Shown: one piece after another, positions 4,246 through 11,492 of the stretch
How the letters are laid out: each line of letters opens with the position of its first letter
Numbering within the stretch: the first letter of the stretch is position 1
Assembly (NCBI GenBank): GCA_001543005.1
Contig: LFLB01000010.1
Location: 1 to 64,000 of the forward strand
Direction of reading: 5' to 3'
DNA length: 64,000 nt
Source of the DNA: Candidatus Spongiihabitans thiooxidans
GTDB lineage: Bacteria > Pseudomonadota > Gammaproteobacteria > Arenicellales > Poriferihabitantaceae
Translations under genes and position numbers: made by a program
The notes under the pieces: generated by a model
The model's input: the letters and a program-made list of their open reading frames with translations, nothing else
Databases searched by the model: none
Told to the model about the DNA's origin: nothing

Positions 4246-6384
4246 ATGCCCGCTAAATTTCCCCCTAAATTGCTCATTGCCAACCGCGGAGAAATTGCCT
4301 GCCGAGTTGCGCGCACTGCAAAGCGAATGGGACTCAGCAGCGTAGCGGTTTATTCCGATGTCGACTGCGCTGCGCTACATGTTAAACAATGTGATGAATC
4401 TATTGCCTTAGGCGGCGTTACCGCGGGTGAAAGCTATCTGGATAGCGATAAAATATTACTGGCCGCAAAGCAATGCGGCGCGCAAATGATTCATCCCGGA
4501 TACGGTTTTCTTTCTGAAAATGCCGATTTTGCCGAACAGTGCAGCCAGGCCGACATCACCTTTATAGGTCCTTCTGCGGATTCAATCCGAATCATGGGCT
4601 CCAAGAGTGCAGCGAGACGCGCTGTGGCATGCGTAAATGTTCCAGTATTGCCGGGATACGATGATGAGCAGCAGGACGATGAATATTTACAGCAGCAAGC
4701 CAATGCCATCGGCTATCCGTTGTTAATAAAAGCGGTGGCCGGCGGCGGCGGCAAGGGCTTGCGGAGGGTCGAAGCAAGCGCCGATTTATTGCCGGCACTG
4801 GAATCAGTCAGACGAGAAAGCCGCTCCGCTTTCGCCGATGATCGGGTCATGCTTGAAAAATTCCTGCCCGTGGCACGGCATATTGAAGTCCAGGTTTTTG
4901 CGGATCAGCACGGCAATATTGTCCATCTGTACGAGCGCGATTGCTCCATGCAACGCCGCCACCAAAAGATAATCGAAGAATCACCGGCGGTCGGGATGAC
5001 CGATGATTTGCGCGAGCAGATGACCCATGCGGCGGTGGAATGTGCGCGAGCGGTCGACTATATGGGGTCCGGCACGGTGGAATTTTTGTTGGCGCCCGAC
5101 AATGCGTTCTATTTCATGGAAATGAACACTCGACTGCAAGTCGAACATCCGGTCACCGAAATGGTCACCGGCCAAGACCTGGTGGAATGGCAAATTCGAG
5201 TTGCCAGAGGTGAATCCCTGCCCTGCTCGCAATCACAGTTGTCGTTATCCGGCCATGCCATTGAAGCACGTATCTACGCTGAAAATCCCGCACAACAGTT
5301 TCTGCCGGCAACCGGCACAGTGCACTTTATTCATCATCCTGATAATCAGGCCGATGATCGAGTCGGCGATCAGGCTGGCGATCAGGCTGGCATTCGGGTT
5401 GACACGGGAATTAAAGCTGGCGATGTTATCGGCCATCATTACGATCCAATGATCTCTAAACTAATCGTTTGCGGCAAGTCGCGGCAGGAGGCGCTGCATA
5501 AAATGGCTGTGGCGCTTGCCGATTATCAAATTCTCGGCGTGCCTAACAATATTTCGTTTTTAGGCAACTTGATCAATCACCGTTTATTCCAGAATGGCGA
5601 GACCGAAACCCGGTTTGTGGAGAAACACTATCGTGAGTTAATTGACCATGATTTAATTGAAAGGGCCGTTATCGACTTTGACCCTGTGCTGGCTTTAGCC
5701 TGTTGTTATGAACTCAATATCAATCGCGACCGGCAAATAACTGCTTGCCGGATAAATGGGCAAGGCCAACAGTCCGACCGATGGTCGCCCTGGAGTCTTG
5801 CCGATGGCTGGCAAAACAACCTGACTCGAACACTATCGTTGCACTTTGATTACCAAGGCGACCGCCAAGGCGATCACGAGGACACTCATTTAGTGGCAGA
5901 CATTGAATTTACAGGCGCTGAATTCAACCGTGAACACCTTAATCTTGATTTACTGAGGCTTAATTTACTGAGGCTTAATTTGCCCGGCGGTGTTTACGCC
6001 ACTCAATACCAAATGTCCAGCGCCAACCATATTCAACTGAAAATGAATGGGCGCTCTGTTAGCGGCGTGGTTGCAAAATCCGGCGACCAGATCATGCTGC
6101 ATTATCAGGGGCGCAACCACCATTTAAAACTTGTCGATCGCCGTTTTCAGGAACCAGCCGGTGATCGGCATAGCGGAGCAGTGCGCGCGCCGATGCCCGG
6201 ATTAGTCATTTCCGTAACCGTCGAAGCCGGCCAAAAGGTTAGCGCCGACACACCTCTACTGATCGTCGAAGCCATGAAAATGGAACACCAGATAATCGCC
6301 CCGAAAGCCGGCGTCGTTAAACAACTGAACTACGCCGTCGGCGATCAGGTAACGGACGACGACGTTTTATTGGTGATCGAATAA
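4246..6384 (+). CDS. liuD: Methylcrotonyl-CoA carboxylase, biotin (alpha) subunit
   Basis: Biotin carboxylase and biotin carrier fused in one chain; it uses ATP and bicarbonate to carboxylate its own biotin for the beta subunit encoded just upstream. The N-terminal domain opens with LLIANRGEIACRV. The ATP-grasp glycine loop GGGGKGLRRV is near residue 165, and EMNTRLQVEHPVTE is near 290. The biotinylated lysine is Lys678 in EAMKMEH, 34 residues from the end. Two spots differ from the family: a DQAGDQAG-type repeat insertion near residue 370, and duplicated LLRLNL units near 567, both coded by short tandem DNA repeats in surface loops. The stop overlaps the next start by one base. Confidence 0.95.
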   Translation: MPAKFPPKLLIANRGEIACRVARTAKRMGLSSVAVYSDVDCAALHVKQCDESIALGGVTAGESYLDSDKILLAAKQCGAQMIHPGYGFLSENADFAEQCSQADITFIGPSADSIRIMGSKSAARRAVACVNVPVLPGYDDEQQDDEYLQQQANAIGYPLLIKAVAGGGGKGLRRVEASADLLPALESVRRESRSAFADDRVMLEKFLPVARHIEVQVFADQHGNIVHLYERDCSMQRRHQKIIEESPAVGMTDDLREQMTHAAVECARAVDYMGSGTVEFLLAPDNAFYFMEMNTRLQVEHPVTEMVTGQDLVEWQIRVARGESLPCSQSQLSLSGHAIEARIYAENPAQQFLPATGTVHFIHHPDNQADDRVGDQAGDQAGIRVDTGIKAGDVIGHHYDPMISKLIVCGKSRQEALHKMAVALADYQILGVPNNISFLGNLINHRLFQNGETETRFVEKHYRELIDHDLIERAVIDFDPVLALACCYELNINRDRQITACRINGQGQQSDRWSPWSLADGWQNNLTRTLSLHFDYQGDRQGDHEDTHLVADIEFTGAEFNREHLNLDLLRLNLLRLNLPGGVYATQYQMSSANHIQLKMNGRSVSGVVAKSGDQIMLHYQGRNHHLKLVDRRFQEPAGDRHSGAVRAPMPGLVISVTVEAGQKVSADTPLLIVEAMKMEHQIIAPKAGVVKQLNYAVGDQVTDDDVLLVIE

Positions 6385-7277
6385 TGACAATGCCAAGCCA
6401 TGTTCGCCTGGTTGAAGTCGGTCCCCGGGACGGATTACAAAACGAATCGACCACGCTATCAAAAGATGTTCGGGTTGAATTGATACGGCGACTGATGGAT
6501 TGCGGACTCACCCACATTGAAGCCGGCAGTTTTGTACATCCACAGTGGGTGCCGCAAATGGCTGGCACCGACGCAGTGCTTGCCGAGTTGCCGCTGGACG
6601 GCGATACACACTTTCCCGTGTTAGTGCCCAATCAGAACGGATTGGAAAAAGCGCTGGCCGCCGGCGTAAAAGAGATCGCAATCTTCGCCGCCGCATCGGA
6701 AACGTTCAGTCAAAAGAATATCAACTGCTCTATCGCCGAAAGTATCCGGCGCTTTATGCCGGTCGTTGAGCAAGCGCATCGACACGGATTAAAAGTCCGC
6801 GGTTACGTTTCTTGTGTCATGGGCTGCCCCTATGAAGGCGCCATTGCAATTACTGCGGTGGTCAACGTGGTGCGCCAGCTCGTTGACCTGGGTTGTTATG
6901 AAATATCCCTGGGCGATACTATTGGCACGGGGTCACCTCTGATGACCCAGCGCATAATCGAATCGCTGGCAAATGACCTCGAAATAAATCGGTTGGCAGT
7001 TCATTTTCACGACACCTATGGGCAGGCACTGGCGAATATCTATGCTGCACTGCAACTGGGGGTCAGCGTTATCGATAGTTCCGTGGCCGGTCTCGGCGGC
7101 TGTCCTTATGCTCATGGCGCCGGCGGCAATGTCGCCAGCGAGGATGTGGTGCATCTGCTCAATGGCTTAGGCATCGCCCACGGTGTGAATCTGGATAAAC
7201 TGGTCGATACGGGTCGTTATATTTGCGCGCAACTGGATCGGCCGGTTATGTCGCGGGTAAATCTGGCGATGGCGTAA
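6384..7277 (+). CDS. mvaB: Hydroxymethylglutaryl-CoA lyase
   Basis: Cleaves 3-hydroxy-3-methylglutaryl-CoA to acetyl-CoA and acetoacetate, the last step of the leucine pathway encoded here. It is a TIM-barrel enzyme of 297 residues. The metal/active-site start VEVGPRDGLQNE is at 9-20. The mobile catalytic-cysteine loop GLGGCPYAHGAGGNV is near 238-252, and HFHDTYG supplies metal-binding histidines. The ATG overlaps the preceding stop codon as TAATG, which implies translational coupling. It is the last gene of the operon. Confidence 0.94.
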   Translation: MTMPSHVRLVEVGPRDGLQNESTTLSKDVRVELIRRLMDCGLTHIEAGSFVHPQWVPQMAGTDAVLAELPLDGDTHFPVLVPNQNGLEKALAAGVKEIAIFAAASETFSQKNINCSIAESIRRFMPVVEQAHRHGLKVRGYVSCVMGCPYEGAIAITAVVNVVRQLVDLGCYEISLGDTIGTGSPLMTQRIIESLANDLEINRLAVHFHDTYGQALANIYAALQLGVSVIDSSVAGLGGCPYAHGAGGNVASEDVVHLLNGLGIAHGVNLDKLVDTGRYICAQLDRPVMSRVNLAMA

Positions 7278-7287
7278 CACGATTGGA

Positions 7288-7304
7288 TTAGGGCATACCC
7301 CTAA
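7288..7304 (+). terminator. Weak hairpin after the leucine operon
   Basis: TTAGGG and CCCTAA form a six-base stem with a five-base loop, followed by an A/T-rich stretch. The position, 10 bases after the HMG-CoA lyase stop, fits a terminator. The stem is short and the T run is imperfect. It could also end transcription coming from the cassette genes on the other strand. Confidence 0.3.
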
Positions 7305-7380
7305 ATTTATTTGCAAACGCTGAGTTGTCTTTGATGAGATCAGAGGTTAGAGGTTTCGATATAGAAATAACCTTTCTATT

Positions 7381-8412
7381 TTATACCGACTTTGATTCAA
7401 GTAACTCTCTTATCTGAGAGGGTAATACACTACGAACATGTTCTGTTATTTTGGCTTCATTCTTTTGCCAGAGAACGCCAAGATAAATTATTAATAGACC
7501 GATTGCTGTTAGTGCAATTGGAAATAGCCAGCTATCCTCAAATACACTAGATGCCAGGTAACCTAGATAACCGCATGCACCTAGTGCTCCAAGAACGACA
7601 AAGACACGTCGTATTAGTAACACGCCAATCCCAATCATAAAGACATTAATAGTAAAGTATATGAATTTAGATAATTCACTATCTGAGGTTTGTGATGACA
7701 AGCCACACCAAAATGCCATGACGCCAAATATATATAGCCAAAAGGCATAATCTACAGTTTTTCTTGCTCTTACATCAACCCAGAATGCTAGACCGATAAT
7801 TAGAATACCGCTATACATTGAGACTAATTTTCGGAGCTCCCATGTGATGTCGCCTCCAGATATCATTGCTGTCAAATCCATAGACATATACAAAAGAGTT
7901 ACAGAAATTGGCATGATTAGAAATGGATACCTATATCTCCAGGCAATAGCAGTACCTACTGCTAGCGTACCTAGCTCCATATATATCCAGTACCACTTAA
8001 TGTACTTGTGATACTCATTGTATGTGGTTTCGTCTGGCCAAAAACCAAAAGCTTGTTGCAAACCATACATAGCCAGGGGTGTTAACGCAACAACAAAGGT
8101 TGCGCATATACCGGCAGGTATTGCGTAGCCTTTATTTTGAAAATGATTAGTGAGTTTTAGCCCAACGCCCGCATAAATAAGTGAAATGAAAAATATTCCC
8201 CAGCCGCCAAAGGACTCCCACCCAATGTTCATGAATAGTGTCATTGCGCCAATAGCAATTAAGCCGCCAAAATAATAGAGCACATGTGTAAAATCAAAAA
8301 CAGGACCAATATTGGGCTGAGATTTTAAAAATATAATTAGTTCATCTGCTTGCGATGAGGTGAGGATATTATTTTTAACAGCGTTGCTAAGATTATCTTT
8401 AGTTATTTTCAT
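7381..8412 (-). CDS. Cassette 3: multi-spanning membrane protein, DUF2157-like
   Basis: A 343-residue membrane protein with about 50 soluble residues at the N-terminus, then roughly ten hydrophobic segments, and a charged C-terminal tail. The N-terminal helix-turn region (DNLSNAVKNNILTSSQADELI) followed by many membrane spans resembles DUF2157-type proteins, whose function is unknown. An AAGGAAG ribosome site lies 7-8 bases before the ATG. The gene begins 42 bases after the cassette 2/3 junction. It is markedly more AT-rich than the flanking operons, as expected for a cassette. No enzyme motif was seen, and the attC that should follow it could not be found. Confidence 0.75.
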   Translation of the reverse strand: MKITKDNLSNAVKNNILTSSQADELIIFLKSQPNIGPVFDFTHVLYYFGGLIAIGAMTLFMNIGWESFGGWGIFFISLIYAGVGLKLTNHFQNKGYAIPAGICATFVVALTPLAMYGLQQAFGFWPDETTYNEYHKYIKWYWIYMELGTLAVGTAIAWRYRYPFLIMPISVTLLYMSMDLTAMISGGDITWELRKLVSMYSGILIIGLAFWVDVRARKTVDYAFWLYIFGVMAFWCGLSSQTSDSELSKFIYFTINVFMIGIGVLLIRRVFVVLGALGACGYLGYLASSVFEDSWLFPIALTAIGLLIIYLGVLWQKNEAKITEHVRSVLPSQIRELLESKSV

Positions 8413-8447
8413 CGCACTACTTCCTTATTGTGAATATGTTTTTATAG

Positions 8448-8507
8448 CACCTAACCGCTTGAATTCAGCCGACGCGTTAGCGGTCAGGTGGAATGATTTG
8501 TTAGCAC
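8448..8507 (-). other. attC recombination site of cassette 2
   Basis: Read on the minus strand the site starts with R'' GTGCTAAC (8507-8500) and ends with R' GTTAGGTG (8455-8448). The 60-base span contains inner complementary stretches (TTCCACCTGAC against GTCGGCTGAA) able to form the folded single-stranded site that integrases recognise. R'' is the exact complement of the first bases of its own cassette, GTTAGCAC, at the 9267 junction. It lies 2 bases after the cassette 2 stop codon. Confidence 0.82.
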
Positions 8508-8509
8508 TT

Positions 8510-9244
8510 TTAGTTTTGGTTGCATAGTTCATAATAATTTTGAAAATTTTTCTGGTGTTCGTTTGCTGATAAGCGAGCATTAGGCTGTGCAATAATTGTG
8601 TATTTTGTACCCATTTCCTTTAGATTTTTTTCTATGGAGTTTGCTACACCTTTCCCTATGATAATTATATTATATGGACTTGCATCAATAATAGATTTTT
8701 TAGTGTAACTCTCCCAAGATTTTGCAATAATTTCTGGCATATTTCTAGGCTTTTTACCATTGTTATACAGTGCCACAATGCTCGTATCAACAAGCCATAT
8801 CCCTAAATCTTTCATTTTTTTTAGTAATTCAATTTTGTTTTTAATTCTATCATTGGGGCTGGTTGAGGATTGTATAGGTTGAAAACATTTATTATCTTCA
8901 ATCCTATTGACGCAACTGTAAAAGATTTTCCAAAACTGAGGCGTTCCATCTCTTTTTGGATGTAAATTGTTATCAGTAAGAATTTTCTCTCCATATGCCA
9001 AACAATATACAAATTTTGAATATTGTTTAGGATAACCTTCCAACTCATTTATTTCTTTAAGTTCGATTTTCATTTCTTCTAGGCTTGTAAATACATGTGA
9101 TTCAGCAAGTAGAATAGTTTTTATTTTTTGTGGTTTCCAAAATTTCCTGTATTTCTCTACCAACTTAACAGATTCAAACGGTTCAACTTGTTCAAATATA
9201 GATTTTATCTTTTTGTAGGTGGTTTCTAATGCTAAATTATTCAA
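8510..9244 (-). CDS. Cassette 2: unknown protein, possible uracil-DNA-glycosylase-like fold
   Basis: A 244-residue soluble protein that I do not firmly recognise. Its pattern hints at the uracil-DNA glycosylase superfamily: a hydrophobic strand leading to AESHVF, a mid-protein GTPQFWKIFY segment, a second strand IIIIGKGVA, and QPNARLSANEH near the C-terminus where those enzymes carry a histidine loop. This is inference from spacing only; no diagnostic motif is complete. It is lysine-, asparagine- and isoleucine-rich and by far the most AT-rich gene in the window, pointing to a foreign origin. It is bounded exactly by attC junctions at 9267 and 8455, so the cassette is 812 bases. Confidence 0.7.
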   Translation of the reverse strand: MNNLALETTYKKIKSIFEQVEPFESVKLVEKYRKFWKPQKIKTILLAESHVFTSLEEMKIELKEINELEGYPKQYSKFVYCLAYGEKILTDNNLHPKRDGTPQFWKIFYSCVNRIEDNKCFQPIQSSTSPNDRIKNKIELLKKMKDLGIWLVDTSIVALYNNGKKPRNMPEIIAKSWESYTKKSIIDASPYNIIIIGKGVANSIEKNLKEMGTKYTIIAQPNARLSANEHQKNFQNYYELCNQN

Positions 9245-9260
9245 TTTGTGCCTTTAGTAG

Positions 9261-9337
9261 TGCTAACGCCTCAATAACCGGCGCAGCTTTGCTGCGTCCG
9301 GCGCCGTAGGCGCGAAGTTGATTGACTTGTTAAGCGC
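9261..9337 (-). other. attC recombination site of cassette 1
   Basis: On the minus strand R'' is GCGCTTAAC (9337-9329) and R' is GTTAGCA (9267-9261), 77 bases in all. A strong internal hairpin (CGCAGC / GCTGCG around AAA, extended by CCGG arms) and flanking CAATCAA / TTATTG stretches fill the centre, as in folded attC sites. The stop codon of the cassette 1 gene lies within R''. The complement of R'' (GTTAAGCGC) recurs at the attI junction at 10164-10156, proving cassette-like boundaries. Confidence 0.87.
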
Positions 9338-10134
9338 CTGCCTGCATTTCAGCCATTTTATTAGTAACATTTTCCACTTCCTTTGTTATTTCCGCGGCTC
9401 TTTTTGCATTTTCTTTATCTACCTCATGTCCATCCTGGATATTCTTTAACTCCATCAGTAGCAGTTGCTCAATTTCATCAAGTAAGTAGTGATGCGCTGA
9501 ATATCCGTACTTATCAATATATTCTGCTTTTAAGGGAAGAACTGTTTTTAAAAGGTTGTTTGAGTGCTCAGAATTTAGATACTTTTCTGGGTTGTCCACG
9601 CCTATTTTGAGTACCTGCATTCTAGCTACAGCCGACATTATCACTGATGAAAACGCTGAATAATACGCCCAGCCTAATGGAGTGATGAATGGTCTAGCCA
9701 AAGCCGCACCAGAAAGATTTAGGCTAGTAGAATCAAAGTTTCCTCCAATAGTTTCTATGAAGGATCGAAATTGAGGATTCCGTGCCAACTCTTTTGCACA
9801 TTCTTCAAATTTCAACGTCGCTAAGGTAACCGATATGTACTTTGCCTTTTCCAGCTCCTTCACAGCACCCCATATCTGATCTATCGCTTCTAGTTTTCTT
9901 TGGTATAAAGCCCCTTGCCTTGTAATTAGCCCAGACATTGCGCCAGCACGAAGCGACTCAATTTGTGCTTCTTTAGACTTAAGTTCAGAACGAAGAGTTT
10001 CCAGTTTGGAATCAAATTCGTTCTTTACACTATTTGTCAGTCGAGTCGATATTTAATGACCTAGCTAACCACACAATTCCACCAAAAAGCATGGTTGTTG
10101 TTAGTGCAGGTATCCAATCAAATATTTGATCCAC
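9330..10134 (-). pseudogene. Cassette 1: membrane-anchored coiled-coil protein, frameshifted
   Basis: The long open part (9330 to about 10052) codes for a helical soluble protein with a predicted coiled coil (KNEFDSKLETLRSELKSKE and onward) and no recognised domain. Its first ATG at 9938 is internal. Upstream, a GTG at 10134 preceded by GAGGGA begins a short N-terminus, VDQIFDWIPALTTTMLFGG, with one membrane helix, which runs out of frame near 10055. Removing one A from the AAA at about 10055-10057 joins both parts into a protein of about 267 residues reading RSLISTRLTNS across the joint. It is therefore either a real single-base mutation or a sequencing error. The function is unknown. Its start and attC define cassette 1 of the integron. 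Confidence 0.78.
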
Positions 10135-10319
10135 AAATTTCCCTCAGATTCGATTGCGCTTAACTATTAGTATAAGGAAAGTTTCTCTCATACGCGATAT
10201 TAAAATATAAATCCTGTGAAAAAAGCCTATTTTTTGCCTTTCAATCTAAAATACAGTTTTACCTGATATTTAGATATTAAAGTGGAAAATAGGATAATGA
10301 CAAAATTTAATCCGATATC
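10135..10319. other. attI-type region with first cassette junction
   Basis: This non-coding DNA separates the divergent integrase and cassette 1. The plus-strand GCGCTTAAC at 10156-10164 reads GTTAAGCGC on the minus strand and marks the G/TT crossover point where cassette 1 was inserted. The stretch from 10165 to 10319 is AT-rich and should hold attI, the cassette promoter (reading left) and the integrase promoter (reading right). No single promoter could be assigned with confidence. Confidence 0.65.
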
Positions 10320-10793
10320 ATGGTAACAGATAAAAAACCAACTTTGGCGCAAATGCGAGAGTTAATGCGGCGAATGGGCTATGCCTACGGCACTGAAAAT
10401 ACTTATTGTGATTGGGTAACCAGATTTATCAAGTTTCATCGGTTACAAAACAGGCAGGCGTTGCTAGATTCTGTTGAGCAAAAGGTTGCACCCAACACTC
10501 AAAACCAGGCATTTAATGCATTGGTGTTTTTATACAATAAGGTTTTGCAACAACCGCGTATTCCTGTGACGTTTACCAAAGAAGAGGTGAGACAAGTATT
10601 GATCTTGATTGATGGTACGGTTGGTATTATTGTCAAACTTTTGTATGCGGGTGGTTTGCGTATTTCTGAGGCTGTACGTTTGCGGGTGCAAGATATTGAT
10701 TTTGGCTTTAAGCAAATTACCATTCGTGATGGTAAAGGCAAGAAAGGTAGGGCAACTCTTCTTGCGAATAATTTTTTTATAAGTGGAGATTGA
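10320..10793 (+). pseudogene. Truncated integron integrase (tyrosine recombinase)
   Basis: The N-terminal SAM-like domain is recognisable (MRELMRRMGYAYGTENTYCDWVTRFI in part), followed by the start of the catalytic domain with the box I arginine in LLYAGGLRISEAVRLRVQDID and the beta-strand ITIRDGKGKKGRA. The reading frame ends about ten residues later, so the box II histidine/arginine motif, the integrin-type IntI patch and the tyrosine nucleophile are absent. About 15-20 residues also appear to be missing between KVLQQP and RIPVTFTKEEV. The frame is interrupted just before the HAD gene, so the 3' end was deleted. The protein should be catalytically dead. An alternative start near 10297 runs into a stop. 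Confidence 0.85.
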
Positions 10794-10796
10794 TCC

Positions 10797-11492
10797 TTGA
10801 GCATAACCCTTGGTTTTGACGTTTACGGAACTTTGATTGACACCCACGGCGTCATCGGCGAACTCGAAAAAATAATCGGCGACGATGCCGCGCGTTTCTC
10901 ACAGATTTGGCGCGAGAAGCAACTTGAATATGCCTTTCGACGCGGATTGATGAGGCAGTATAAAAATTTTAGCGTTTGTACCCGAGACGCACTGGACTAC
11001 ACTGCGGCCTTTCTCAATCACAACTTTAGTGATCAACAAAAGCAAACTTTGAATAGCGCATACTCGACGCTACCTGCATTCGGTGACGTGATTGCCGGGT
11101 TGGCCGCAGCCAAAGATGCCGGGTTCAATCTCTATGCTTTTTCCAACGGTCAGGCCGAAGCCGTGCATACGGTATTATCCAACGCCGGGATACGAGAATA
11201 TTTTGCCGATGTTGTCAGTGTCGATGAGGTGGGCACGTTTAAACCTGACCCCGAGGTGTACCACCATTTTGTCAGGGCTACCAAAGCGCAACTTGAAAAC
11301 GCCTGGCTGATATCGAGCAATGGATTCGACGTGATTGGCGCGCTTGCCGCTGGCATGAAAGCGGTCTGGGTTCAGCGTTCAAACGCAGTCGTGTTTGATC
11401 CCTGGGAGTATCAACCTACTCTGATAGTTGATTCAATCAGAGACTTGCACAGGAAAATTGACCGATGGCAAATCGGAGAGACGAAATCATGA
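10797..11492 (+). CDS. HAD-family (S)-2-haloacid dehalogenase-like hydrolase
   Basis: A 231-residue HAD hydrolase of the L-2-haloacid dehalogenase type, which hydrolyses carbon-halogen bonds through an aspartyl ester. The nucleophile is Asp8 in GFDVYGTLIDT, where YGT replaces the DxD of phosphatases and supports a dehalogenase assignment. Motif II is FSNG near 112, the lysine is in FKPDPEVY near 146, and the acidic motif is SSNGFDVIGALAAGM. The TTG start is supported by GGAG about 8 bases upstream. The gene starts 4 bases after the broken integrase frame, so the integron deletion ends right at its promoter. A thioesterase gene follows with overlap. Confidence 0.85.
   Translation: MSITLGFDVYGTLIDTHGVIGELEKIIGDDAARFSQIWREKQLEYAFRRGLMRQYKNFSVCTRDALDYTAAFLNHNFSDQQKQTLNSAYSTLPAFGDVIAGLAAAKDAGFNLYAFSNGQAEAVHTVLSNAGIREYFADVVSVDEVGTFKPDPEVYHHFVRATKAQLENAWLISSNGFDVIGALAAGMKAVWVQRSNAVVFDPWEYQPTLIVDSIRDLHRKIDRWQIGETKS

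Follow-up and report, generated by a model that had tools for sequence, protein, structure and literature searches.

A broken integron with two demonstrable cassettes between two metabolic genes of Candidatus Spongiihabitans thiooxidans, in a genome with cassette arrays on several contigs

The stretch of the Candidatus Spongiihabitans thiooxidans genome analysed here (the window; 64,000 nucleotides of contig C22) contains a block (7278-10796) that lies between a gene for hydroxymethylglutaryl-CoA (HMG-CoA) lyase (6384-7277, plus strand; NF004283, 429.8 bits, cut-off 246) and a gene for a HAD type II hydrolase (10797-11492, plus strand; TIGR01428, 184.7 bits). On the minus strand, the block has two gene cassettes (10164-8447) and is arranged in integron order, with an attI site, a first cassette and its attC, a second cassette and its attC, and then a third gene. 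A remnant of an integrase gene, intI, is found on the plus strand (10320-10793) and is oriented away from the cassettes, as is typical of integrons. An Rfam search of the whole window at the gathering threshold gave no match, and PADLOC likewise returned none.

The attC sites were searched with a covariance model, R1, built from twelve attC sites on contigs C32 and C19 of the same genome, with the window excluded. Training sites were chosen by eye and their variable loops removed, and the model was built from joined arms because MAFFT misaligned the arms of full-length attCs. Over the 64 kb window with filters off, the best match was 8506-8449 (34.3 bits, E 2.5e-6) and the second best was 9332-9264 (15.7 bits, E 0.2), with the third reaching only 11.3 bits; the two best are the sites named in the first-pass annotation of this DNA, which had proposed such a model as a check on them. 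The first closes cassette 2 (attC 8447-8507, minus strand) and has near-identical counterparts on C32, C9, C15 and C40. The second, closing cassette 1 (attC 9260-9337, minus strand), would by itself be weak with the blind model, and its assignment is supported by its position and by its resemblance to an attC of contig C40 (85.5% identity over 76 bp). Folded singly as minus-strand DNA, both sites exceeded shuffled sequences in stability by only a moderate margin (8446-8511, z = -2.16; 9259-9341, z = -2.11).

The boundaries of these two cassettes, which the annotation had held to be provable from the sequence, are indeed fixed by complementarity between the R'' of each cassette and its own start. 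In cassette 1, R'' GCGCTTAAC (9337-9329, minus strand) is complementary to the start GTTAAGCGC (10164-10156, minus strand) at 9/9 positions, and in cassette 2, R'' GTGCTAAC plus one base (8508-8500, minus strand) is complementary to the start (9267-9259, minus strand), again at 9/9. Discounting the GTTA core common to all sites leaves five extra matches per cassette, which by our own arithmetic would jointly occur by chance with a probability of about 1e-6. The same complementarity is seen in 7/7 attC-bounded cassettes of C32, in runs of 7-10, and on C19, where it is present with decay.

Three cassettes had been proposed; two can be demonstrated, each ending in an attC, and these are the only provable cassettes at the locus. 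The third gene (7381-8412, minus strand; 343 aa, without a family match) follows the attC at 8455, and the R1 model finds no attC after it, so its status as a cassette is unproved. Three genomes of the order carry homologues of the third gene with 62-66% identity, and there is one partial homologue besides; none showed an attC in flanks of about 1.5 kb. A search of relatives for the same cassettes had also been suggested; genes 1 and 2 were found in none of the rest of the 109 genomes of the order.

The cassette-1 gene as called (9330-9938, minus strand) encodes 202 aa, and its plasmid homologues are 27-35% identical. The two annotated plasmid homologues have an N-terminus about 60 aa longer, and because the counterpart of this extension lies upstream here in a different frame, the gene looks frameshifted at its N-terminus or misassembled. 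The cassette-2 gene (8510-9244, minus strand; 244 aa) has a single homologue, 51% identical and from a distant gammaproteobacterium, among 369 genomes of the class; it has no Pfam match, and viral-contig and plasmid searches with its protein yielded nothing. Stretches resembling those of the uracil-DNA glycosylase superfamily (LLAESH, VDTSIV, GKGVA, QP..LS..EH), read by eye, are conserved in the sole homologue, and the protein may be uracil-DNA-glycosylase-like. PDB matches of this protein to designed pentatricopeptide proteins were judged likely to be compositional and were set aside. A single-sequence AlphaFold model of the protein had a pLDDT of 38.6 and was unusable.

The attI core (TTATACTAATAGTTA; 10161-10175, minus strand) lies 145 bp from the start of intI, giving the juxtaposition of attI and intI that characterises an integron. 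The 15-base core, TTATACTAATNGTTA, has four exact copies in the genome (C19, C22 in the window, C30 and C32), each heading an array; one copy with one mismatch heads the C40 array, and a decayed form is found at the head of the C7 array. With two mismatches allowed, a reversed control pattern gave more matches than the real pattern, so only exact and one-mismatch sites were used. A very similar attI is found at the same position in intact integrons of Thiomicrorhabdus, Allopseudospirillum and Ruthturnera.

The intI remnant (157 aa) covers positions 2-168 of 315 of TIGR02249 and scores 130.6 bits, well under the 265-bit cut-off. Alignment to intact relatives confirms the earlier reading that the integrase is cut after box I, with the rest gone, and adds two in-frame deletions inside the remaining part, each 13 codons long. 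The IntI-specific patch falls in the missing half. Because the catalytic residues of a functional integrase are incomplete, the integrase of the window is, on its sequence, dead. At the position of the first gap, a 39-nt deletion, two copies of the repeat CAAAAAGTTG lie 39 bp from each other in the intI relic on C32, so that this deletion may have arisen by slippage between direct repeats.

The stop of the remnant reading frame is 3 nt ahead of the start codon of the HAD gene, which is TTG here and ATG in most relatives. This proximity, together with the preservation of frame across both internal deletions, would fit a co-opted stub, its promoter region and frame kept to drive the HAD gene as a leader, a reading that is compatible with the loss of the integrase. 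We consider it rather unlikely, since promoter-like matches are no more frequent than in shuffles and two in-frame deletions are expected by chance in 1/9 of cases.

The array has counterparts elsewhere in the genome. Genome-wide, 29 attC matches were found over nine contigs (C7, C9, C15, C16, C19, C22, C30, C32 and C40), eight of them additional to that of the window and two of these eight carrying intI relics, and attI-like sites are present at six of the nine. In an attC search of 60 relatives under stricter filters, 24 matches fell in this genome against at most 10 elsewhere, a comparison biased toward this genome by the training of the model on it. One cassette is common to C32 (L006 9625-10115) and C40 (L131 2246-2736), with 93% identity over 491 bp, which implies that cassettes once moved between arrays. 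Among the other C32 cassettes, one carries a HicA-like gene and another a RidA-like gene, both named by reading. C9, C15 and C16, the last with a single attC, have no attI-like site, and for this reason their sites could be off-target insertions and not former platforms. Beside the cassette array of C15 (L134), numerous imperfect direct repeats lie inside a long open frame (6456-9051).

Three intI relics were detected in the genome (window, C32 and C19) and all are broken. The C19 relic has stops and frame changes. The C32 relic is cut off beside a transposase gene, which lies in two frames (L006, 6084-6793 and 6810-7073). In an IntI tree with several poorly supported forks, the C19 relic grouped with Ruthturnera (91/79), the window and C32 relics grouped with Thiomicrorhabdus and its allies (82/85), and the IntI of the host family itself was distant (100/99). 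Because the C19 relic and the other two group apart, the relics likely derive from at least two IntI lineages.

The array had been described as stranded, and a search for an intI that could act on it in trans returned only dead copies, with no match above the TIGR02249 cut-off anywhere in the draft genome (96.88% complete, 42 contigs). It is improbable that an intact integrase encoded in sequence missing from the draft still acts in trans on this array. The draft state of the assembly leaves room for one, as does the C30 contig, which ends about 250 bp past its attI, and the cassette common to C32 and C40 makes former exchange between arrays visible; against this, every relic found is broken, and at C40 and C7 host genes occupy the position expected for intI.

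In ten relatives of the same family, from four genera and none of the same genus, the HAD gene comes immediately after the HMG-CoA lyase gene, with a spacing of about 25-165 bp compared to 3.5 kb here, and the block at 7278-10796 is therefore absent from these genomes. Most simply, the block would be an insertion into a host operon. No clear target-site duplication was found at its edges, where the best repeat is 7 bp, and no transposon was found as a vehicle for the platform at this site. That the integron was instead ancestral at this site and was lost in the relatives is quite improbable: all relatives compared come from other genera, which would leave space for such a history, but repeated loss would be needed to bring the two host genes together in all ten, and the nearest IntI of the remnant is that of Thiomicrorhabdus and allies and not that of the family itself.

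The remnant integron of the first-pass annotation is confirmed by the blind attC model, the attI of intact integrons, the match to the IntI family and the empty site in ten relatives, and the locus is a genuine but broken integron between two metabolic genes. The first three of these, with the exact complementarity of R'' and start and the occurrence of genes 1 and 2 together in none of the genomes searched, leave a negligible chance that the three genes simply form an operon with fortuitous attC-like repeats, for which only the lack of attC near the third gene homologues would speak.

Very probably, a Thiomicrorhabdus-type integron inserted at this site, captured cassettes and lost its integrase, with the same having occurred elsewhere in the genome. 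An integron with intI, attI and cassettes would have arrived between the genes for HMG-CoA lyase and the HAD hydrolase, and at least two cassettes would have been captured during the time that the integrase was active. Short deletions, of which at least one would probably reflect slippage between direct repeats, and a further deletion of intI extending almost to the start codon of the HAD gene would then have destroyed the integrase, leaving the cassettes stranded. A parallel history elsewhere would account for what is left in the genome as a whole, namely attI-like sites at six arrays, intI relics at three and cassette sites on nine contigs.

The locus belongs to an already known kind, the pseudo-integron or CALIN. 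A 2008 survey found nearly 1/3 of intI genes to be pseudogenes and 20% of carriers to have more than one intI (PMC2426708), and intI inactivation is widespread in Xanthomonas, where the ilvD pseudo-integrons, like the array here, retain cassettes beside a truncated or frameshifted intI (PMC12444791). In Xanthomonas the platform is found at a single conserved place, downstream of ilvD, in almost every genome, whereas this single genome has six attI-like sites and every intI sought in it was either broken or gone. CALINs have been described with proposed origins in intI loss or off-target insertion (PMC9024848, PMC8618304); the locus is likewise an attC cluster with no functional integrase, but it keeps attI and half of intI, so an origin by intI loss is visible. 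Thiomicrorhabdus and Candidatus Ruthturnera have intact integrons with the nearest IntI (55-62% identity), a very similar attI and related attC sites, and their integrases, unlike that here, are full-length. Within the literature searched, only the multiplicity of arrays within a single genome stands out as unusual.

More tentatively, platforms may have been gained repeatedly from vent-type sulfur oxidisers at up to six intergenic sites, with every integrase lost, the cassettes persisting as a scattered, fixed reservoir and an active integrase being selected against; we regard this as possible, with the odds against it. How sedentary integrons come to occupy new chromosomal sites is, to our knowledge, poorly understood. 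The locus is a case of integron decay whose limits are well defined and whose empty site is known, the genome allows six platforms to be compared at differing stages of loss, and closed genomes of the lineage could reveal the insertion boundaries directly. Two further observations were made in other genomes: a complete Candidatus Ruthturnera genome (L074, 1.5 Mb) encodes a full-length IntI and has one or more attC matches, and another gammaproteobacterial MAG (L099, 1-900) contains a broken intI adjoining an alanine racemase gene.
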